From: Bacteroidales bacterium
Lineage (GTDB): Bacteria; Bacteroidota; Bacteroidia; Bacteroidales; Muribaculaceae
Length of the DNA: 64,000 nucleotides
Reading direction: 5' to 3'
NCBI GenBank assembly: GCA_014800845.1
Contig: JAAVFJ010000068.1
Coordinates: 1-64,000, forward strand
In this document: in pieces, positions 177 through 59,807 of the stretch
Numbering within the stretch: the first letter of the stretch is position 1
Layout: every line of letters starts with the position of its first letter
Notes under the pieces: generated by a model
Told to the model about the DNA's origin: nothing
Databases searched by the model: none
The model's input: only the letters and a program-made list of their open reading frames with translations
Translations under genes and position numbers: made by a program

Positions 177-869
177 ATGACCGTTGCAGCCAATCAGCCA
201 TATTTGTTTCCCTATCTCGGCTATTTTCAACTGATAGCCGGGGCTGATTTGTTTGTCATTGCTGACTCTCTCCAATTTACAAAGGAAACGTGGATGATAA
301 GAAATAAATTGTTAATTCAAGGTCATCCTAAACTTGTAACATCGTCTGTAATAGATAAGAAACATATAGCTCCTATAAATTGTAAGTACTATAGGGATAA
401 TTTACTTTCTAATTGGCTTAATTATTTAAAGTTTGATTACGCTAATGCGCCATATACTGAAAATGTTATAGATTTGATTACTGAGACATTAAAGAATGGA
501 GAAAGAAATGTAGCTATAGTAAATGAATTGTTGATTAAAGCAATTTGTAATTTTATAGGAGTTGAAACCCCCATGCTTAGACTTTCTGAACTTAGAGTTA
601 AAAGCGATGAAAAGGTTAAAAGAGTAATTGAAATAACTAAATTATGTGGTGGAGATTCTTTTATTAATCTTCCGGGAGGTCGAACACTCTACGATAAGAA
701 TATATTTGCGCGCGAAGGGATTGAGCTGCAATTTTTGGAGCCTTCGCTTCCCCCTTACCGGCAGCAGCGCACCCGGGAGTTTCATCCCGGTCTCTCTATT
801 CTCGATTTGCTCTGTAATATCTCTCCTTCCGAAATACTTGATATGGTTAAATCCGCTCGTTTCTCATGA
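177..869 (+). CDS. WbqC-like family protein
   Basis: N-terminus MTVAANQPYLFPYLGYFQLI and FINLPGGRTLYDKNIF resemble WbqC family; first ~480 bp AT-rich. Confidence 0.85.
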   Translation: MTVAANQPYLFPYLGYFQLIAGADLFVIADSLQFTKETWMIRNKLLIQGHPKLVTSSVIDKKHIAPINCKYYRDNLLSNWLNYLKFDYANAPYTENVIDLITETLKNGERNVAIVNELLIKAICNFIGVETPMLRLSELRVKSDEKVKRVIEITKLCGGDSFINLPGGRTLYDKNIFAREGIELQFLEPSLPPYRQQRTREFHPGLSILDLLCNISPSEILDMVKSARFS

Positions 870-1411
870 ATCATAAGAAGAAAAATATACTTGAACTTAC
901 GCGCATGACTCCGGCTGAGTGTCGGGCTATGGGGAAACTGCCGCTGATGGTGCTTCTCGACAATGTGCGCTCGCTTAATAATGTTGGTGCTATTCTGCGC
1001 ACTGCCGATGCCTTCAGTGTGGCACAGGTGGTGATGTGTGGCATTACGGGCACTCCCCCCTCGCCGGAGATTCATAAGACGGCTCTCGGGGCGGAGGAGT
1101 CGGTGGTGTGGCGCCACGTGCCCTACACTGCTGATGAGGTTCGCCGTCTGCGCGAAGAGGGGTGGCATGTGTGTGTGCTGGAGCAGACCCACAATTCCGT
1201 ACCCTTGCAGGACTTCCGCGTGGAGCCGGGTAGGAAGTATGCCTTAGTAGCCGGCAATGAAGTGCAGGGTGTGGACCAGAAGGTGGTGGACCTTGCTGAC
1301 ACGGTGATTGAGATACCTCAGGAGGGGGCCAAGCACAGTCTGAACGTGTCCGTAAGCACCGGCATAGCACTGTGGCATCTGTTCTCAGCGCTGCGTGGTG
1401 TCCATTCGTAA
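866..1411 (+). CDS. TrmH/SpoU family RNA 2'-O-methyltransferase
   Basis: LLDNVRSLNNVGAILRTADAF, NEVQGVDQKVVDLAD, SLNVSVSTGIALW SPOUT motifs. Confidence 0.9.
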   Translation: MNHKKKNILELTRMTPAECRAMGKLPLMVLLDNVRSLNNVGAILRTADAFSVAQVVMCGITGTPPSPEIHKTALGAEESVVWRHVPYTADEVRRLREEGWHVCVLEQTHNSVPLQDFRVEPGRKYALVAGNEVQGVDQKVVDLADTVIEIPQEGAKHSLNVSVSTGIALWHLFSALRGVHS

Positions 1412-2917
1412 GAGGGGGGGGCCAATCAGTGAACGGGCCCGTATGAGCGGGCGATAGGCCGACAGGGTGTCTGAGAGTGGCACCTCATAGAGGGTGACTT
1501 TTTGCGGCACCTCTTCCGCCCCTTTGAAGCGCAGGAAGCTGAGCAGTGAGCCCTCGCGCAGCGAATGGGTGCATATCACCTCCCGCAGTCCCGGAGAGGC
1601 TGTAAAGGCCTCGGCAGTGCCTCTGGCGCGGGCTGTACCCGCCAGAGCCGGGAGGGTGTCACACCTCAGAAATTCCGGGGGCAGGACTATGAATGTGCGC
1701 CGCCAGTCATGAAATGCTTCGGCCGAGAGATTGGCTCTCACTGTGGCCGCACCGTTGACGTAGGTGAGATATGGCGCAAGAGTGGCCGGCACCTGAGGGG
1801 TTTCTATGATATTTCGGTAAATTACCCGGTTTCCACCCTTGAGTTCGCTGAGTATGCTTTGGGCCTCGCGTGTGGCGTAGGCTTGCCAGGCGATGAGGGT
1901 AAGCATAAAAAATGAGAATATAAGCGTGCCGGCAGCGCAGAGACCTGCGTAGACTTTGCGGGTGAAATGCGGGTGAATGGCGCGCGCAGCTATGGCTATG
2001 CTCAGGCAGAGTGGTAACCAGAAGACTCTGCCGCTCTGGCGGGCAAATATAGCTAATGCGAAGGTCACGGCGGTCACGCTCCAGAAGCAGAGTGTAAGCG
2101 GGTCAAGCGTGCGGCGCTTCAGGCTCTTGGCAATTGTAAAAATCAACGCGCACCAGAGGGGCCATTGCTGCAATCCGAGGGTGTAATAGTAGAAATTATG
2201 TCCTGTCTCCAGCCTGGTCACGTCCTCTGCATGGCTGAATATGCCGGGGCTCAGCATAGTAATCAGCGAGCAGCAGAGATAGACTGTCGAGAAGGGGCTC
2301 ACACGACGCTCTCTGAGCATAAAGCAGATGAGAGCCACATCCACCGAGAGCGCCATCCCTTCGTGCATCAGAGGAGCTATGACGGCAAGTATAAAGGCTG
2401 TTTTCTTGTGGGAACCGGCTCTGAAAATGCCGGTTGCAAAGACGAGCACCCAGAGATTCAGAGCTGAGGAGGCTACATAATTCAGGTAATAGTCGCAAGA
2501 AATCATCTGCTCTCCCCACGGCAGCAGGAGCCAGCTAAGCAGCACTATGCCCACAAGGCTGAGGGGATGGTTGTTCCACCCCTTCCCCTTTGAAAGAGCG
2601 CACAGGGACGCAATCATCAGCGGGAACGCCAAGGCACACAGCATCAACACCACTGCCGGGCAGAGCGGGAGCAGGAAAGCGAGCATGTTGGCGAGGCGAC
2701 CGTTGACAGTGAGGTAATGGTGCCACCACGCCTGCGGCAATTGAGAGAACGATGTGAGCGCGGGCCCGGTGCAAGAAAAGAAATCATCCTCGGAGCCTGC
2801 GGGCAGATGGCTGTAAGGCAAATCGTCAGCCCACGGACCATGACCAAGCATAATCCAGAGGCTGACGAGTATGGAGAAAAATGCAAGCAGCAGCCCGAAG
2901 GCAGTGGTGCGCTTCAT
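1385..2917 (-). CDS. Polytopic membrane protein (DUF6056-like)
   Basis: Many hydrophobic helices; family call from recall of similar Bacteroidales proteins; 3' end overlaps the convergent 866-1411 gene by 27 bp. Confidence 0.6.
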   Translation of the reverse strand: MKRTTAFGLLLAFFSILVSLWIMLGHGPWADDLPYSHLPAGSEDDFFSCTGPALTSFSQLPQAWWHHYLTVNGRLANMLAFLLPLCPAVVLMLCALAFPLMIASLCALSKGKGWNNHPLSLVGIVLLSWLLLPWGEQMISCDYYLNYVASSALNLWVLVFATGIFRAGSHKKTAFILAVIAPLMHEGMALSVDVALICFMLRERRVSPFSTVYLCCSLITMLSPGIFSHAEDVTRLETGHNFYYYTLGLQQWPLWCALIFTIAKSLKRRTLDPLTLCFWSVTAVTFALAIFARQSGRVFWLPLCLSIAIAARAIHPHFTRKVYAGLCAAGTLIFSFFMLTLIAWQAYATREAQSILSELKGGNRVIYRNIIETPQVPATLAPYLTYVNGAATVRANLSAEAFHDWRRTFIVLPPEFLRCDTLPALAGTARARGTAEAFTASPGLREVICTHSLREGSLLSFLRFKGAEEVPQKVTLYEVPLSDTLSAYRPLIRARSLIGPPLLRMDTTQR

Positions 2918-2944
2918 TTTATTTCATTTGCTTAAGAGAGTGTC

Positions 2945-5437
2945 TTATTTCACTACCAGTATCTTGCCGGCGTTGGCAGTGCCGCCATCTTCGGTGGAGG
3001 CCGCTATGATGTAGACACCGGTGGACACGCGGCGACCATCGACGTTTGAGAGGTCCCAGGTGAGCATACCCCCTTGTGAACGTCCGAGCTCTTTCACGAG
3101 GTGGCCACCCTGATCTATGATTTTCACCAGCGAACCGTCCATGAGTCCCTGTATGGTCACGTGGCCGTAATAGTCAGGACGCACGGGGTTGGGATAGCTC
3201 ACTACGTTGTCAAAGTTCTCCTCGCCGGGAGTTACGTCGGAGTAGTAGGTGGCAAGCTGATATTTTGTGCCGATCCACACGGCGTTGCTCTTGGGGTCGA
3301 AGGCAGTGCAGTAGACCTCATCGCTGGGGAGCAGGGAGTTGTCAGTGGTGAAGTGCTCCACAACCTCATCGCCGTTAGGTGAGGTTACATATATACCACT
3401 GCCGATGGTTGAGAACCATTTGCGGCCTGCGCCGTCGGCATTGATGTTGTAGATGTCGTTGCCGGCCAGCAGGTAGTCACCCTGATTGGTGCCGTCGTTG
3501 CGGCTCACGATGATGCGGTTCACAGTGGTCTTGCCTGCTGCGAGTTCCGAGGGCTTGAAGGTGAAGGTACCTGTGGAGGTAGCCACCCATACGGTGCCGG
3601 TAGCGGGGTCTTCATACATGTCCTGCACGTAGATGTAGGCTATGTCATTGCCATTCTGGTCGATGAATTTAGTAAGACGCAGCGACTGATCATCGGCATC
3701 ATTAGCGAGTGTGCCCTTGTGGTCGAGCAGATAGAAGCCGCCTGCCCACTGAGTGGGGTGATAGAAGAGCACGAGGTTGCGGTTGGAGCTATGCTTCAGC
3801 GCCAGAATTTTGCCGTAGTCGCCATAGGGGGAATAGGCTTTCACGTTGATGCCCTTCAGCGAGGCAGTGTTGTCGGCCAGGCGGTCGGCAGCGGGCCAAA
3901 CATAAACGGGCTGCAGAGAAGAGGTGTTGGAGCCGGCTATGTTGCGCACGAGCCACATGTTGCCGTCGGCGTCAAATGAGGGCTTACCGAGCATGACATT
4001 GGCATTCGCCAGACCACCTGTCAGGGATGTAAATACATTGTGGAAGCCTTCTTGGCCTTTCCCGAGGCCGTTAGCATAAGTGTATATTGCTACCTTGTTT
4101 TCCGGAAGAGTAACTTTATAGAAACCTTTAAGCAAACCTGACCAAAATACATTTTCATCAAGTGGATCAACTATAGGGCCATATCCTGTTGCTATTTGTT
4201 TAGCATAAGGGGTAGTTGAGGTGCGACAACCTATAGTAACCCAATCGCCACCATCATAATAGGAAAGTAAGTGTTCATTATCAACCCATATTGGTGTCAG
4301 AAAACGATTGAAAGATTCATTGCCCGCAACCATTCCATATTTATCAGAGTATGTTAAATCAAAGACTCTATTGGGAGCAAGAAATTTATGAGGGGTAATA
4401 ATTTCTGTTGTAAAGCTTTTGTCAGCGTTAGCAGAGTTTTTACACCAGCCCTGTGCCCCTAATTCGTAGTAAAAATCTTCAAAATCCCATGAGCCACTTT
4501 TTTGACCTCGCAGATTAGTGGAGACTGCCAGACGCCTGCAGACACCTTCTCTGTCAAGTTGATTAACTTGCCAGTCATTTAAAATGAAATAGCCATCGCG
4601 GTTTTCGCTGAAGTACTGCACTTTGTCAGAGAATCGCTTATTTGCAGTAATAGAGCCGTCGGCATTCAGCGTTACTATTGTCATGCCGCTCTGCAAGAAG
4701 GCAAACTGATTGTCATTGATGGGCACAATGCCGTCGGCCGCTCCGGAAATACCCTCGATAGGCTGGAAGGAATCAAAGGTATTGTGGCGTGATGATACAG
4801 GCGATGAGAATACACCTTTGCTTGATGAGGCAATGAGCTTGTCCCCAACACGGCCTATACCGGTAAGAGGCTCATTGTAGATGTAGCTCTCTTTGATTAC
4901 TTTATTCTTATCGTCAATGACTAAATAACCGAAATCAGTTGCTAAATACGCACATGAATTTTGGGGATCAAAAGTTATGTTTTTAACATTTTTTGAAGAG
5001 GTAAGCGTGGCATTTGACAGGCCGGGTACGGTATAAACAGAGTCATCGTCATAGAGAATATCTATTTTTGAATCGTCGTATATCACCATCAGATAACCTT
5101 TGGTGGCGTTATAAGCAGCGTTACGTATTATATTACCATGTAAATAGTTACTTGCATTATAAGGAATCATTTCTTGTGATTTCTTATCTAATACAAATAA
5201 GTTACCAAAATCTTCTTCCCAACCGTTGGTGCCGGTGAGATTCATAGATAGAAGATTGGGCTGGGCTAACATAATGAAAAAAGTACGATCTTTCGTATCA
5301 ATTACTTTTAATGGGAAAGCGTCCCATGTGTTGTGCAGGCGCCACTGGCCCGGGGTGCCGTTTTCGGCGCGCAGTCCGAGCATTGTCATGAGCGTGAGCA
5401 GAAGCAGTATCAGTCGGTTCATATGTGTAAATGTCAA
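2945..5437 (-). CDS. PorZ-like beta-propeller protein with C-terminal T9SS sorting-type domain
   Basis: Signal peptide, N-terminal GQWRLHNTWDAFPLKVIDTKDRTFFI, two-component-propeller-like repeats, C-terminal YPNPVRPDYYGHVTIQGL...GVYIIAASTEDG..GKILVVK. Confidence 0.7.
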   Translation of the reverse strand: MTFTHMNRLILLLLTLMTMLGLRAENGTPGQWRLHNTWDAFPLKVIDTKDRTFFIMLAQPNLLSMNLTGTNGWEEDFGNLFVLDKKSQEMIPYNASNYLHGNIIRNAAYNATKGYLMVIYDDSKIDILYDDDSVYTVPGLSNATLTSSKNVKNITFDPQNSCAYLATDFGYLVIDDKNKVIKESYIYNEPLTGIGRVGDKLIASSSKGVFSSPVSSRHNTFDSFQPIEGISGAADGIVPINDNQFAFLQSGMTIVTLNADGSITANKRFSDKVQYFSENRDGYFILNDWQVNQLDREGVCRRLAVSTNLRGQKSGSWDFEDFYYELGAQGWCKNSANADKSFTTEIITPHKFLAPNRVFDLTYSDKYGMVAGNESFNRFLTPIWVDNEHLLSYYDGGDWVTIGCRTSTTPYAKQIATGYGPIVDPLDENVFWSGLLKGFYKVTLPENKVAIYTYANGLGKGQEGFHNVFTSLTGGLANANVMLGKPSFDADGNMWLVRNIAGSNTSSLQPVYVWPAADRLADNTASLKGINVKAYSPYGDYGKILALKHSSNRNLVLFYHPTQWAGGFYLLDHKGTLANDADDQSLRLTKFIDQNGNDIAYIYVQDMYEDPATGTVWVATSTGTFTFKPSELAAGKTTVNRIIVSRNDGTNQGDYLLAGNDIYNINADGAGRKWFSTIGSGIYVTSPNGDEVVEHFTTDNSLLPSDEVYCTAFDPKSNAVWIGTKYQLATYYSDVTPGEENFDNVVSYPNPVRPDYYGHVTIQGLMDGSLVKIIDQGGHLVKELGRSQGGMLTWDLSNVDGRRVSTGVYIIAASTEDGGTANAGKILVVK

Positions 5438-10288: not shown

Positions 10289-10330
10289 TGGGTTAAGGGT
10301 TAAGGGTTACGGGTTAAGGGTGATGGGTTG
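10289..10330. repeat. Heptamer array GGGTTAA and variants
   Basis: GATGGGTTAAGGGTTAAGGGTTACGGGTTAAGGGTGATGGGTT immediately after the miaB stop. Confidence 0.9.
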
Positions 10331-10404: not shown

Positions 10405-10788
10405 ATGGGTTATTCTTTATCTTTTGAGAAGCTTGAGGTTTATCAACTTTCTCGCAGTTTGGTGAAATGGGTGTACCGCGTCACGTCATCCTTTCCTGAA
10501 CATCAACGCTTTAGTTTGATAAATCAGCTTCAGCGTGCCGCTGTATCCGTAGCTTCAAACATAGCTGAAGGAAGCGGGCGGCAACACTCAAAAGATAAGG
10601 TCCATTTCATTCATATAGCTTACGGCAGTTTAATGGAGGTATATTGCCAATTGCAGATATAGTTAGATTTAGGCTATATCTCAGCGGAAGACATGGCTTT
10701 CATCAAACCTCATATACTTCAAATAAGCAGAATGTTATCAGGATTAAGAAAAGCCTTAATGGCAGTCCCCGCCCCCCATAACCCATAA
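10405..10788 (+). pseudogene. Four-helix bundle protein (S23/IVP family, TIGR02436-like) interrupted by in-frame TAG at 10660-10662
   Basis: FEKLEVYQLSRSLVKWVY...QRAAVSVASNIAEGSGRQ...GSLMEVYCQLQI*LDLGYISAEDMAFIKPHILQISRMLSGLRKAL; same frame continues after the stop with the expected C-terminal helix. Confidence 0.85.
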
Positions 10789-10828
10789 CCCTTAACCCAT
10801 AACCCTTAACCCATAACCCATAACCCCT
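10775..10828. repeat. Heptamer array CCCATAA/CCCTTAA, inverted relative to 10289-10330
   Basis: CCCATAACCCATAACCCTTAACCCATAACCCTTAACCCATAACCCATAACCCCT, touching the GH3 stop codon. Confidence 0.9.
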
Positions 10829-13782: not shown

Positions 13783-13850
13783 GGTTTTAGGTGTTAGGGC
13801 CGCGGAGAACTCCGAGATCTCCGAGTACTCCGAGAACTCCCAACTCCCCA
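13780..13850. repeat. Composite heptamer plus nonamer array
   Basis: GGTTTTAGGTGTTAGGG then GGAGAACTCC-GAGATCTCC-GAGTACTCC-GAGAACTCC; begins at the YqeY stop. Confidence 0.85.
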
Positions 13851-22509: not shown

Positions 22510-22698
22510 GAGCAGGGGCTGAAAATTTAGAGAACTCGGAGAGTTCGGAGTAATCGGAGCTCTCCGAGTTATCGCTTGAGCTGGGACTTGGGAGTTTTGG
22601 GTGGCTTGGGAGTTCTCGGAGTTCTCGGAGTTCTCCGACCTCACCCAAAACTCCCATAGCTCCCAAAACTCCCATTATTCCCAAGTCCCAGCCCCTGC
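22510..22698. repeat. Nonamer-derived inverted-repeat array filling a convergent intergenic region
   Basis: AGCAGGGGCTG...CTGGGACTTGGGAGTTTTGGGT...ACCCAAAACTCCCATAG...CCCAAGTCCCAGCCCCTGCC plus CGGAGTTCT units. Confidence 0.85.
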
Positions 22699-23727: not shown

Positions 23728-23766
23728 TTTGGGGTTATGGGTTATGGGTGATGGGTTATGGGTTAG
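23728..23766. repeat. Heptamer array GGGTTAT
   Basis: TTTGGGGTTATGGGTTATGGGTGATGGGTTATGGGTTAGG; contains the stop codon of the 23763 gene. Confidence 0.9.
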
Positions 23767-27636: not shown

Positions 27637-27780
27637 AGTGATTGGGAGTTTTGGGTTTTAGAGCTGGGGGCTTGGGAGTAATGGGAGTTTTGGGAGCTAT
27701 GGGAGTTTTGGGAGTTCTCCGAGTTCTCCGAGTTCTCCGAGTTCTCCGAGAACTCCGAGGGCCTAAAACCTAAAACCTAA
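27637..27780. repeat. Composite nonamer array plus CCTAAAA heptamers
   Basis: TGGGAGTAA-TGGGAGTTT-TGGGAGCTA-TGGGAGTTT-TGGGAGTTC-(TCCGAGTTC)4-TCCGAGAAC-TCCGAGGGC-CTAAAACCTAAAACCTAAAA. Confidence 0.95.
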
Positions 27781-29177
27781 AAAGTAATTGTGCTGCCGGA
27801 TTCGGCCGGAGAGTCGGTGGAGCGTTCCGCGGCTTTGGCTGCGGCATCGTTTTCGGTGCGCACACCCTGACCTATGGAGCGTATGTGGTCCTTCAGGCGT
27901 ATGTCGCGCCCGTAGGCCGGATTCTTTTCAAAGAGGTAGATTACCTCGTCGTCGTCAAACTGCGAGGGCTTGAGCACCACGTATTTGGCGCGGGCCATGG
28001 CCTGTTCGTGGTCGGCCATTTTGCCCGGACCATACTGGTCCTCGATTTTGGTGCGGGCGGCGTTGATGTCTTCCGCAGGGGTGGCCACACGGGTGTCCTC
28101 CTTGCCGGGAGCCGCGGGGAAGATTATTGAGCCGCTGCCCACACCCTTGCCCTCCTTGTCGGCGGAGCCTTCGGAGATGGTTATGTCGAAACCGGAGGCG
28201 AGGATGGTCATTTTCACCCCTTCGCCCAGCGATTCGTCGAAGCAGTTACCCCACTTCACGTCGATTTTGGGGTTGAGGTTGGCAGAGAACTGCGTGATTT
28301 CGTTCATCTCGGCCATGCTGACCACATTCTTGGCCTTAGGATTGAAGTAGAGATAGAAGAGCAGACGCTTGGAGCTCTTGATGTCGGCATTGCGGAGCAG
28401 GGGAGAGTGGAGCGCATCCTGAATGGCGTTGGTCACACGATGCTCACCCTCGCCGTAGCCGGTAGAGATAATGGCTGTGGAGCTCTGCTGGAGTGTGGTC
28501 TTCACGTCATTGAAGTCAGCGTTGATATAGCCGTTGGTGTTGATGATTTCGGCTATGGAGCGAGTGGCGTTGGCCAGCGTGTCGTCGGCCTTTTCAAAGG
28601 CGTTGAGCAGATTCAGGTCCGGATAGATTTCCGTCAGTCGCTCGTTGACCACTATTAGCAGCGTGTCCACATGCTTGCGCATCTCCTCGGCGCCCTTGAG
28701 GGCCTTGAGAATCTTGCGCTCACCCTCGAAGAAGAAGGGGATGGTGACGATTCCCACCGTGAGTATACCCATCTCCTGAGCCACCTGAGCCACGATAGGC
28801 GCGGCGCCTGTGCCTGTGCCACCACCCATGCCGGCGGTGATGAACACCATGCGGGTATCGTCGCCCAGCTCGCGGCGAATCTCCTCGCGCGAAGCCTCGG
28901 CGGCCTGGCTGCCCAGCTCCGGATTGTCGCCGGCGCCCAGGCCGTGGGTTATGTCGTAGCCCAGGATTATGCGGTTGGGAATCTGCAACTTGCGCAGCGA
29001 GTGCATGTCAGTGTTGCAGACCAGGAAGGTCACATTCTCGATTCCCTGCTTAAACAGGTAGTTGGCGGCATTGCAGCCACCGCCGCCCACACCAATAACC
29101 TTGATGATAGGGGGGAAGTTGCCCTCTTCCAGGGGATCGGACTGAAAGGCCTCGGGGTTCTGTATGTTGTCGGTCAT
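27777..29177 (-). CDS. ftsZ: Cell division protein FtsZ
   Basis: IKVIGVGGGGCNAANYL, FITAGMGGGTGTGAAPIVA. Confidence 0.97.
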   Translation of the reverse strand: MTDNIQNPEAFQSDPLEEGNFPPIIKVIGVGGGGCNAANYLFKQGIENVTFLVCNTDMHSLRKLQIPNRIILGYDITHGLGAGDNPELGSQAAEASREEIRRELGDDTRMVFITAGMGGGTGTGAAPIVAQVAQEMGILTVGIVTIPFFFEGERKILKALKGAEEMRKHVDTLLIVVNERLTEIYPDLNLLNAFEKADDTLANATRSIAEIINTNGYINADFNDVKTTLQQSSTAIISTGYGEGEHRVTNAIQDALHSPLLRNADIKSSKRLLFYLYFNPKAKNVVSMAEMNEITQFSANLNPKIDVKWGNCFDESLGEGVKMTILASGFDITISEGSADKEGKGVGSGSIIFPAAPGKEDTRVATPAEDINAARTKIEDQYGPGKMADHEQAMARAKYVVLKPSQFDDDEVIYLFEKNPAYGRDIRLKDHIRSIGQGVRTENDAAAKAAERSTDSPAESGSTITF

Positions 29178-35393: not shown

Positions 35394-35434
35394 CTTGGGA
35401 GATTTGGGAGGTTTGGGAGATATGGGAATTTTGG
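35394..35434. repeat. Nonamer array GGGAGNTNT
   Basis: GGGAGATTT-GGGAGGTTT-GGGAGATAT-GGGAATTTT-GGGGGAAC, next to the murD stop. Confidence 0.85.
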
Positions 35435-35441
35435 GGGAACT

Positions 35442-56574: not shown

Positions 56575-57684
56575 ATGAAAAACAGCGACAAGAAACATAA
56601 CCGGAGCCTCGCCGTAATAGGTATCAGGGGCTTTCCGGGTGTGCAAGGCGGAGTAGAGAGCCACTGTGAGCAACTCATACCCCGCCTGGCCCGTCAGTTG
56701 CACTGCCGGGTGTTCAGACGCAAACCCTACCTGACCGACGCCTCACACACCGAAATCCCCGGCGTCAGCTTCACAGACCTCACCTCCACCCGCATCGGCG
56801 GCTTCGAATCACTCTGGCATACATTTAAAGCCTCGCTACGGCTCATCCTAAGCCGCCCTGACGTCGTAAACGTCCACAATATAGGTCCGGGCCTCTTCAC
56901 GCCCCTGCTGCGCCTGGCGGGCCTAAAAGTCGTGCTCACATACCACAGCCCCAACTACGAGCACGATAAATGGAGCGCCCCCGCCAAGCTTCTGCTGCGG
57001 GTGGCCGAAAAACTATCACTCGGATTTGCCAACCACATCATCTTCGTGAGCCCCGTGCAGCGCGCCCGCTACTCCGAAAAAATCCTGCGCAAATCCACCG
57101 CCATACCCAACGGCATCACCCCCATAGGCATAGACCGCAACACCGGCTTCCTCGAGCGCCACAGCCTCCGCCCCGGCGGCTACATCCTCGCCGTGGGGCG
57201 CCTTACCCCCGAAAAAGGCTTCGACAACCTCATCCGCGCCGTCAACCTCCTGCCCGACCCCCACGCGCGCCTCGTGATAGCCGGCAGCGCCGACCACAAC
57301 CCCGCCTACCTGGACTACCTGAAGAGCCTCGACACCCACAGCCGCACCCTCTTCACCGGCTACACCTACGGCGCCGACCTGGCACAGCTCTACACCCACG
57401 CCTCCCTCTACGTGCTCTCCTCCCACAACGAAGGCTTCCCCATGGTGCTGCTCGAAGCCATGTCCCACGACCTGCCCATAGTCTCCACCGACATCCCCGC
57501 GGCCCACATCATTCCCCTCCCCGCCGAAAACTACTGCAAAGACCGCGACCCGCAAGCCATGGCTGACGCCATAGCCCGCGTCCTCGAAAAGCAGGAGCGC
57601 CCCACCTACGACCTCACCCCCTACGATTGGGACAACATAGCCACCCAAACCCTCGAAATCTACCGCCCCCTTTTGAGGGAATAG
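56575..57684 (+). CDS. Glycosyltransferase family 4
   Basis: IGIRGFPGVQGGVESHCEQL; ILAVGRLTPEKGFDNLIRAVN; YVLSSHNEGFPMVLLEAM. Confidence 0.92.
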   Translation: MKNSDKKHNRSLAVIGIRGFPGVQGGVESHCEQLIPRLARQLHCRVFRRKPYLTDASHTEIPGVSFTDLTSTRIGGFESLWHTFKASLRLILSRPDVVNVHNIGPGLFTPLLRLAGLKVVLTYHSPNYEHDKWSAPAKLLLRVAEKLSLGFANHIIFVSPVQRARYSEKILRKSTAIPNGITPIGIDRNTGFLERHSLRPGGYILAVGRLTPEKGFDNLIRAVNLLPDPHARLVIAGSADHNPAYLDYLKSLDTHSRTLFTGYTYGADLAQLYTHASLYVLSSHNEGFPMVLLEAMSHDLPIVSTDIPAAHIIPLPAENYCKDRDPQAMADAIARVLEKQERPTYDLTPYDWDNIATQTLEIYRPLLRE

Positions 57685-57775
57685 TCGGAGCACTCGGAGT
57701 TCTCGGAGCACTCCAGCTGAGGGAATAGTCGGAGCTCTCGGAGTACTCCGAGTTCTCCGAGAGCTCCCAAAACTC
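57674..57775. repeat. Nonamer array with 44-bp tandem duplication
   Basis: TGAGGGAATAGTCGGAGC at 57674-57691 and 57718-57735; units CGGAGTTCT, CGGAGTACT, CCGAGTTCT, CCGAGAGCT. Confidence 0.9.
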
Positions 57776-58324
57776 TCATTGCTTGCGCCTGCGGGCTTCG
57801 AGGCGGGCGTGGGTCATTTGTTCGCGGATGCCTCCTTGCTCTAAGAAGTCTTTTTTCTGACGCTCTATGAGGCGGTGCAGCAGCACATCAGCCTGATGGA
57901 GCAGCACTATCGCTATGCTGGCTGCCGTGGCGTCTGTGCGCGTCTGCAGGCGCGAAATGTAGTCTTGGCTTTCGGTATGCGACATGCAGAATGTGCGCGT
58001 CTGAGCCACTTCGCGGGAATTCTTTTCCCAGATGCTCAGTCCGCGCACACGCAGATAATCTTCGTAATCCAAGAGCAATTCCTGAAGGCTTGCCTTGGCA
58101 ACGTTTGTCAGTTTTATTTCTGTCTCTTTTGAGGTGGACCCCGCGGCACTCCCTTCTGCTATGTTTTGTTTTCCGCTGCGCGCAGCCTGAATCATTTGAT
58201 CGACCGTGCGGTCGCCGCGCTGAAGATATCTGTGAGCGAAGAAGTAGGTGATGTCATAGATGATTTCGGCTACTTTGAAGGCTTTCAGATTTCGATAGTG
58301 ACCGCGCTGCGGAATGAAGGTCAT
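57776..58324 (-). CDS. Four-helix bundle protein (S23/IVP-like with C-terminal extension)
   Basis: RNLKAFKVAEIIYDITYFFAHRYL...QMIQAARSGKQNIAEGSAAGSTSKETEIKLTNVAKASLQELLLDYEDYL. Confidence 0.88.
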   Translation of the reverse strand: MTFIPQRGHYRNLKAFKVAEIIYDITYFFAHRYLQRGDRTVDQMIQAARSGKQNIAEGSAAGSTSKETEIKLTNVAKASLQELLLDYEDYLRVRGLSIWEKNSREVAQTRTFCMSHTESQDYISRLQTRTDATAASIAIVLLHQADVLLHRLIERQKKDFLEQGGIREQMTHARLEARRRKQ

Positions 58325-58325
58325 G

Positions 58326-58406
58326 TTGGGTTGAGGTTTTTGGGTTGAGGTTTGGGGGAGTTCTCGGAGTTCTCGGAGTACTCTGAGAACTCCCAGAACT
58401 CCGAGT
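58326..58406. repeat. Composite array: (GGGTTGAGGTTT)2 plus nonamers
   Basis: GGGTTGAGGTTTTTGGGTTGAGGTTTGGGGGAGTTCTCGGAGTTCTCGGAGTACTCTGAGAACTCCCAGAACTCCGAG. Confidence 0.9.
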
Positions 58407-58412
58407 GCAAGC

Positions 58413-59807
58413 TTAGGCTTTGAGGTAGCGGTCTATGGCAGCAGCGGCACGGCGGCCGGCACCCATAGCCAGGATTACCGTGGCGGCGCCGGTCACGGCA
58501 TCGCCGCCGGCGAAGATGCCCGGGCGCGTAGTGGCTCCATCCTCATCAGCTACGAGGCAGCCGCGGCGCGTCACGTCCAGACCTGCCGTAGTGTCCTTAA
58601 TCAGAGGGTTGGGGCTGGTGCCGAGAGCCATAATCACCTCGTCGCAGTCAATCACGAAGTTGCTGCCGGGCACCTCGCGGGGGCTGCGGCGCCCACTCTC
58701 GTCGGGCTCTCCGAGCTCCATGCGCACACACTCCATGCCTATTACCTTGCCCTGCTCATCGCCTATGATGCGCACGGGGTTGGTGAGCATGTGGAAGTTG
58801 ATGCCCTCCTCCTTGGCGTGGTGCACCTCCTCCACGCGGGCGGGGAGCTCGGCCTCGCTGCGGCGGTAGACGATAGATGCGTCGGCGCCCAGGCGCTTGG
58901 CGGTGCGCACGGCATCCATAGCCACATTGCCGCCACCCACCACCACAATGCTGCGGGCATCATAGAGCGGGGTGTCGTAGCTATCATCCCAGGCGTGCAT
59001 GAGATTGGCACGGGTGAGCATCTCGTTGGCAGAGAACACACCGTTGAGATTCTCGCCGGGAATACCCATAAAGCGGGGCAGGCCGGCGCCGGAACCGATG
59101 AACACGGCATCGAAGCCCTCCTCATCGAGCAGTCCGTCAATGGTCATAGTGCGACCTACGATTACGTCAGTCTCAATCTTCACACCGAGGCGCTTCACGG
59201 CCTCCACCTCCTTGGCCACGATGCGCTCCTTAGGCAGACGGAATTCCGGAATACCATAGACCAGCACGCCGCCGGCCTTATGCAGCGCTTCGAAGATGGT
59301 TACCTCATGGCCGAGGCGGGCAAGGTCGCCGGCACAGGCCAGACCTGCCGGGCCGCTGCCTATCACAGCCACGCGCTTGCCGGTGGGGGTGGCTGCGGGC
59401 ACCTCAAACTCATCGGCATGCTCAATCTTCCAGTCGCCGGTGAAGCGCTCCAGCTTGCCTATGGCGAGCGGTTCGCTCTTGATGCCGAGCACACAGGAAC
59501 CCTCACACTGAGTCTCCTGCGGGCATACGCGGCCGCAGACGCTGGGCAGAGCGGAGTCCAGACCGATAATCTCTGCGGCTCCCTTGATGTCCCCCTCAGC
59601 CAGATGCCCTACGAAACCGGGGATATTGATGCCCACCGGGCAAGCCTGCACACAGCGCGGGCGGGGGCACTGCAGGCAGCGGGTGGCCTCAAGCATAGCC
59701 TCCTCGGCATTGTAGCCCAGGCATACTTCTTCAAAATTAGTGGCGCGAACCTGAGGGTTCTGTTCGCGCACCGGAGTGCGCGGTATCTTGTTTCCTTTAA
59801 TTGCCAT
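58413..59807 (-). CDS. GltD/NfnB-like NADPH-dependent oxidoreductase
   Basis: CLQCPRPRCVQACPVGINIPGFV; VAVIGSGPAGLACAGDLARLGHEV; VVVGGGNVAMDAVRTAKRLGA; ATG at 59807. Confidence 0.92.
   Translation of the reverse strand: MAIKGNKIPRTPVREQNPQVRATNFEEVCLGYNAEEAMLEATRCLQCPRPRCVQACPVGINIPGFVGHLAEGDIKGAAEIIGLDSALPSVCGRVCPQETQCEGSCVLGIKSEPLAIGKLERFTGDWKIEHADEFEVPAATPTGKRVAVIGSGPAGLACAGDLARLGHEVTIFEALHKAGGVLVYGIPEFRLPKERIVAKEVEAVKRLGVKIETDVIVGRTMTIDGLLDEEGFDAVFIGSGAGLPRFMGIPGENLNGVFSANEMLTRANLMHAWDDSYDTPLYDARSIVVVGGGNVAMDAVRTAKRLGADASIVYRRSEAELPARVEEVHHAKEEGINFHMLTNPVRIIGDEQGKVIGMECVRMELGEPDESGRRSPREVPGSNFVIDCDEVIMALGTSPNPLIKDTTAGLDVTRRGCLVADEDGATTRPGIFAGGDAVTGAATVILAMGAGRRAAAAIDRYLKA

Follow-up and report, generated by a model that had tools for sequence, protein, structure and literature searches.

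Small four-helix-bundle (4HB) genes are known mainly from inserts in ribosomal RNA genes. The locus described here raises the question of why such a gene lies between two protein-coding genes, enclosed on both sides by arrays of a short repeat. The window, i.e. the whole 64-kb stretch of DNA that was analysed, is one end of contig C68 of a draft genome of 2.45 Mb in 82 contigs.

The bracketed gene and its neighbours

The gene on the minus strand at 57776-58324, described from its ORF, profile scans and a structural model, encodes a 182-aa S23/IVP-like 4HB protein. The N-terminal bundle matches the profile TIGR02436 with 33 bits (cut-off 24), which places the protein in the S23/IVP family, and the C-terminal part corresponds to the '4helix_suffix' domain TIGR04258 (72 bits, cut-off 40). 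The Pfam family PF05635 gave 28.2 bits, below its cut-off of 33.8. The AlphaFold model is a helical bundle (mean pLDDT 84) with 2GSC (TM 0.85-0.87 by target) and 2RLD as best PDB matches; its fold resembles that of these two proteins, at weak Foldseek E-values (0.03-0.35), and a profile match to 2GSC reached E=3e-4. Both structures belong to the S23 family and were crystallised with five chains, and we take these relatives, following the literature, to be toroidal pentamers. Pfam and NCBIfam scans of the bracketed gene returned 4HB families only and no Y1 (HUH) transposase, and no recognised nuclease or transposase motif was found in the 4HB proteins. The low dN/dS of two 4HB ortholog pairs (0.06 and 0.10) indicates that the protein is maintained by purifying selection where it is intact; between the window protein and its relatives pN was 0.23-0.32, with pS saturated.

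Upstream of the 4HB gene lies a gltD-like oxidoreductase gene (58413-59807, minus strand), and its convergent neighbour is a glycosyltransferase gene (56575-57684, plus strand). The repeat search located one nonamer array (GGAGTTCTC-type) on the 3' side of the 4HB gene at 57685-57775, beginning right after the glycosyltransferase stop (57684) and adjoining the 4HB stop. Another, on the 5' side at 58325-58412, begins beside the gltD-like stop codon and extends to the 4HB ATG, where two 14-bp TTGGGTTGAGGTTT copies of a degenerate heptamer type adjoin the start codon. The arrays themselves occupy 57685-57767 and 58326-58405. Nonamer arrays fill both intergenic gaps, as the original prediction had described, and its coordinates agree to about 10 bp. 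The 3' end of the glycosyltransferase gene (TGAGGGAATAGTCGGAGC) is duplicated about 45 bp downstream within the array (57672-57735), so that this array contains copied gene-end sequence.

A second element and dispersed arrays in the same genome

The window also harbours a short-type 4HB gene at 10405-10788 on the plus strand (PF05635, 123 bits), interrupted by an in-frame TAG at 10660-10662. A heptamer (GGGTTAA) array on the plus strand at 10290-10330, after a miaB-like stop codon, lies upstream of this gene, and a heptamer array on the minus strand at 10772-10826 lies on its downstream side; the two arrays are inverted relative to each other. The genes at 57776-58324 and 10405 are the sole PF05635 matches in the 2.45-Mb genome, and both family members are indeed bracketed by repeats, nonamers and heptamers respectively, as had been proposed.

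The arrays are more numerous than the 4HB genes. Genome-wide pattern searches returned 86 nonamer and 143 heptamer matches, compared with none for reversed control patterns; the matches group into about 35 places for nonamers and at least 32 for heptamers. Solo copies without an ORF in the window include nonamer arrays at the ftsZ 3' end (27665-27782), at 22609-22684 and at 13801-13840 (minus strand), and a heptamer array at 23732-23765 (plus strand), as well as a period-9 array with a variant unit (TTGGGAGAT) at 35395-35435. An array does not uniquely mark a 4HB gene. In the stretches examined there were 62 arrays, all of them outside genes. Dyad symmetry of the nonamer units was considered and found unconvincing (mean mismatch to their own reverse complement 3.42, vs 3.77 for shuffled units).

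Several of these features suit an explanation in which polymerase slippage gave rise to the arrays as ordinary intergenic simple repeats or terminators, the 4HB genes just occupying roomy regions. Most of the roughly 65 array places in the window genome are without a 4HB gene, many arrays are hairpin-like and abut stop codons, and heptamer repeats are common in bacteria, with slippage proposed as their origin (PMC4679880, PMC4692102).

Nonamer and heptamer arrays are also found together. At least 10 of the 35 nonamer places have a heptamer array no more than 60 bp away (12 pairings among the matches listed), where 0.5 were expected. In nearly every pair the plus-strand array comes first and the minus-strand array second, and some nonamer arrays sit between two heptamer arrays (co-location on contigs C9, C42, C55, C70 and C80 of the window genome, G000). 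This co-location fits a shared landing site and, together with the excess of arrays over 4HB genes, agrees with an explanation in which the 4HB genes are passengers that land or recombine in arrays of unrelated origin and have no part in array making.

Association and repeat period within the genus

PF05635 matches were present in 78 of 101 genomes of the same genus. The surroundings of 87 4HB genes were taken from the genus, genes were called, and TRF arrays were counted in intergenic regions of 20-200 bp, with the remaining regions of each stretch as controls for the 4HB flanks. Arrays occurred in 52 of 78 regions flanking short 4HB genes (Fisher p=6e-14) and in 21 of 38 regions flanking long ones (p=2e-5), compared with 48 of 242 controls. 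They stood on both sides of 18 of 47 short and 11 of 40 long 4HB genes, vs 21 of 354 ordinary genes. The link between this fold and simple-repeat arrays, which the original prediction had suggested from the window, thus holds as an enrichment over random genes; the prediction's own refuting condition, an array frequency no higher at 4HB genes than at random genes, did not come true in this comparison. Most arrays in the window genome are found without a 4HB gene. For the slippage explanation, the much smaller number of arrays in length-matched controls is a difficulty.

The repeat period follows the class of 4HB protein. The dominant lag in short-4HB flanks was 7 (46 flanks) or 8 (6) in 52 of 57, and in flanks of long, TIGR04258-type genes it was 9 (33) or 10 (5) in 38 of 42. 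The ratio of periods 7/8 to 9/10 was 52:4 for the short class vs 2:38 for the long class (p=9e-20); the exceptions L073, L075, L076 and L166 are short 4HB genes with period 9. The unit sequences vary between elements, even in one genome, despite the class-bound period. We consider the association of 4HB genes with arrays, together with the period rule, to be strongly supported and close to certain.

Because arrays start at stop codons, we had first favoured a reading in which the bracketing is the mere sum of the 3' arrays of the neighbouring genes; given the result by class, this is insufficient. A period that follows the protein clade is likewise unpredicted by slippage, which the comparison of periods by clade contradicts and which we regard as very unlikely. 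Nor would a clade-specific period be expected if the 4HB genes were passengers in arrays made by other means.

Replication beyond the genus

PF05635 was detected in 301 and TIGR04258 in 47 of 393 genomes of the phylum. At phylum loci outside the genus, the lags of short 4HB genes were 7 (13), 8 (5), 6 (2), 9 (2) and 13 (1), and those of TIGR04258 genes were 9 (13), 10 (1) and 7 (1). In these independent genera, periods 7/8 to 9/10 were 18:2 for short vs 1:14 for TIGR04258 proteins (p=7e-7). A tree of 99 4HB proteins needed 16 period changes, vs 42.6 in shuffles, none of 200 shuffles being as low; the placement of win_short, the broken 10405 gene with a wrong frame and a long branch, was disregarded. 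One short clade of this tree has period 7 in 23 of 23 members, the TIGR04258 clade has period 9 in 36 of 39, and a third, small clade has mostly period 8.

Named genomes were scanned by a protein motif, blind to repeats, which gave 80 loci, 79 of them testable. These loci belong to Bacteroidota, Bacillota, Acidobacteriota, Pseudomonadota, Planctomycetota, Verrucomicrobiota, Campylobacterota and others, many of them from metagenome-assembled genomes, so that single phylum labels need care. Arrays were found at 66 and strongly inverted flanks at 53 of the 79 loci, with period 7 in 74 flanks and period 8 in 19. An Rfam scan of 20 named 4HB loci found rRNA in none, and an rRNA location of the related loci was dropped. 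Viral contigs yielded one long-type 4HB relative, which is uninformative on viral carriage. Beyond what had originally been predicted, the repeat period tracks the 4HB clade in the sequences compared, and the pattern spans many phyla.

Inverted flanks

Read on the 4HB strand, the usual order is the stop codon of the upstream gene, an array, the 4HB ORF, a complementary array, and the ATG of the next gene of the same operon. The local inverted-repeat score between flanks was at least 30 in 33 of 44 short and 9 of 37 long elements, vs 2.1% of 378 ordinary genes. Minimum-free-energy folds of short elements had a median of 21 flank-flank pairs, which fell to 9 once the flanks were shuffled; the median of ordinary genes was 4. 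Taken as a class, long elements did not pair their flanks better than shuffled flanks do (7/28 vs 7/28). The long element at 57776-58324 itself has 53 predicted flank-flank pairs vs 0-32 with shuffled flanks, so that complementary termini are predicted round its ORF, as in an intervening sequence (IVS) of rRNA. Inverted flanks are unpredicted by slippage. Inverted termini were seen and no target-site duplication was delimited, as the arrays run into the gene ends.

One short 4HB element with inverted heptamer flanks (L152; G365 C41, about 1440-1880) lies inside a large methyltransferase-like gene. The open frame of this gene (381-3317, with a DPACGSGHML motif) has 979 codons and stays open right through the element, in a frame different from that of the 4HB ORF.

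Insertion sites and sharing of repeat units

In at least 20 genomes of the genus, including the window genome, the FNR and gltD genes meet in a stop-start overlap, a junction that is occupied in G005 by an array, a 4HB gene and an array. The gltD-ychF junction holds a short 4HB gene in G005 and G012, and a heptamer hairpin without an ORF in G051. At the gltD 3' end, the window genome has the nonamer/long-4HB element, G020, G046 and G052 have ORF-less arrays (period 9, 7 and 8, respectively), and no array was found in G018, G028 and G011. This comparison implies that unrelated array families insert repeatedly at one gene end, and the gltD 3' end appears to be a recurrent insertion site in the genus. 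The ORF-less hairpins may plausibly be reduced forms of 4HB elements. Array-free junctions in relatives are unexplained by landing in existing arrays, and the passenger explanation is on the whole improbable.

Two side observations concern single loci. At L083 (G005 C273, 1804-4050) a gltD-like gene is bordered on either side by different short 4HB elements. L077, L079 and L084 are seemingly one locus at which the 4HB gene is kept in three species and the unit differs in one (ACGTTGG vs GCGTATC), which suggests concerted turnover of the repeat unit there.

Dispersed arrays share the unit of the resident 4HB gene in all three genomes examined (the window genome, G030 and G062). The unit AGTAGRG has 63 matches in G030 and 0-1 in 11 of 13 other genomes (15 in G034 and 14 in G074), and ATCGTTA has 38 matches in G062 and none in 12 of 13 others. 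Such genome-wide sharing, like the purifying selection on the protein, would also be in line with regulation that benefits the host, the 4HB protein being an RNA-binding regulator and the arrays its dispersed operators, many in 3' untranslated regions, without any mobility; a repeat-binding regulator has been proposed for TAACTGA arrays (PMC4679880). Regulation of this kind sits poorly with the differences between species in unit sequence and sites, with junctions occupied in some species and empty in others, with several 4HB copies carrying different units in one genome (G091, G005, G022 and G087), and with the broken state of the second window copy at 10405. We judge it to have a small chance of being right.

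Arrays of period 7-10 were found in 7 of 209 intergenic regions (3.3%) of genomes without PF05635, vs 84 of 374 regions away from 4HB genes (22.5%) in 4HB-bearing genomes (p=4e-11), with the caveat that the latter stretches were picked around 4HB genes and that unselected stretches of the window genome gave 7 of 123. Some arrays persist in two of five genomes without PF05635 (G008 and G024, both draft assemblies). A low array load in genomes lacking 4HB genes is not predicted by slippage.

Relation to known systems

Avd of diversity-generating retroelements is a related four-helix bundle, likewise pentameric, that acts together with nucleic acid, and it had been put forward as a precedent together with the 4HB proteins of 23S rRNA intervening sequences. 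The latter, S23/IVP, turned out to be the better one. No reverse transcriptase, template or variable repeat was found among the neighbours examined of the window 4HB genes. The search for a reverse transcriptase elsewhere in the genome yielded a single domain (RVT_1; G000 C42, 28560-29045), on a contig other than that of both 4HB genes, and a reverse-transcriptase partner was rejected. In REP/RAYT systems an autonomous gene is bracketed by inverted short repeats and accompanied by many solo repeats. The 4HB elements are similar in both respects, but RAYTs are Y1 transposases and the 4HB proteins have no recognised nuclease or transposase motif.

The IVS of the Coxiella 23S rRNA is a 428-nt selfish element with inverted termini and an S23p ORF, preceded by two or three tandem heptamers (GACAGAT) in a strain-variable number, and is excised by RNase III (PMC4990558). 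The published element thus already shows heptamers and inverted termini, without a generalisation beyond rRNA. Similar to the rRNA IVS of Coxiella, Leptospira and others (PMC4990558), the window element encodes a protein of the same family and fold, with its ORF between complementary termini. It differs in lying between protein genes (gltD-like and glycosyltransferase) and outside 23S rRNA. Unlike the Coxiella heptamers, the arrays of 4HB elements are longer and two-sided; also unlike rRNA IVS, the long class has the C-terminal suffix domain and nonamers, and the unit recurs across the genome in many ORF-less copies.

Dispersed intergenic heptamers near gene ends have been described as GGGAATC in Xanthomonas and GGGGATT in Nostoc (PMC4692102), and others in Beggiatoaceae (TAACTGA), cyanobacteria and Bacteroidetes (PMC4679880). 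Like the 4HB arrays, the published heptamers (Xanthomonas, Nostoc, Beggiatoaceae, cyanobacterial STRRs) are intergenic, lie near stop or start codons, and have a species-specific unit and variable copy number. However, no protein partner was identified for them (PMC4692102, PMC4679880), whereas 4HB arrays are tied to a gene of matching period. PMC4679880 raised the idea that a repeat-binding protein could be the mobile element in its own right. The BrickBuilt MITE of Porphyromonas gingivalis (PMC4596501) is, like the 4HB element, found between genes in Bacteroidales and combines inverted ends with a tandem repeat inside, but it has a 23-bp unit, lacks a 4HB ORF and is treated as a MITE. In the open-access subset of the literature searched, we did not find S23/IVP genes tied to dispersed arrays, or repeat period to protein clade.

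Proposed explanation

On the sequence comparisons above, 4HB elements are likely to be selfish elements of the IVS type that reside outside rRNA and have ORF-less derivatives. With slightly more reserve, the feature in the window is probably one copy of such a widespread IVS-like element, acting by the following mechanism. An S23/IVP-type 4HB ORF between two arrays would insert at gene junctions, usually right after a stop codon. In the transcript, the inverted arrays would anneal to form a long stem enclosing the ORF; by analogy with the Coxiella IVS (PMC4990558), this stem could be cleaved by RNase III, and the cutting would limit harm to the host operon. The 4HB pentamer would bind the RNA or DNA of the arrays at a spacing of 7, 8 or 9 nucleotides per subunit, which its clade would determine. 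Its binding might promote array spread and expansion, including that of ORF-less arrays, as an autonomous element serves non-autonomous ones.

Several observations count against the selfish-element reading. About one third of the flanks have no detectable array, some short genes depart from the period rule, and some arrays persist in genomes without PF05635. Long-type flanks are inverted in only about one quarter and, as a class, pair no better than shuffled ones, and no target-site duplication was identified. Arrays also keep close to gene junctions, places that would put up with any insertion that is not disruptive. It is plausible, at rather less than even chances, that array spread is driven by the 4HB protein and that this protein senses or sets the period. 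More tentative still is the broadest extension of this reading, in which the ring or subunit geometry of 4HB IVP sets the period while leaving the unit sequence free, and drives the birth, spread and concerted turnover of most bacterial heptamer and nonamer repeats, including those of Xanthomonas, Nostoc and Beggiatoaceae, without a classical transposase.

Significance

The over-representation of heptamer tandem repeats in bacteria has lacked an explanation for decades, and for S23/IVP proteins there are solved structures and, to our knowledge, no known function. The link between protein clade and repeat period pairs these two puzzles and gives each a testable partner. Outside rRNA, in operons of many phyla, IVS-type selfish elements are perhaps far commoner than has been supposed, and 4HB elements there may cut or stabilise messenger RNA. 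Many simple repeats that lack an explanation may originate from these widespread and little-described elements.
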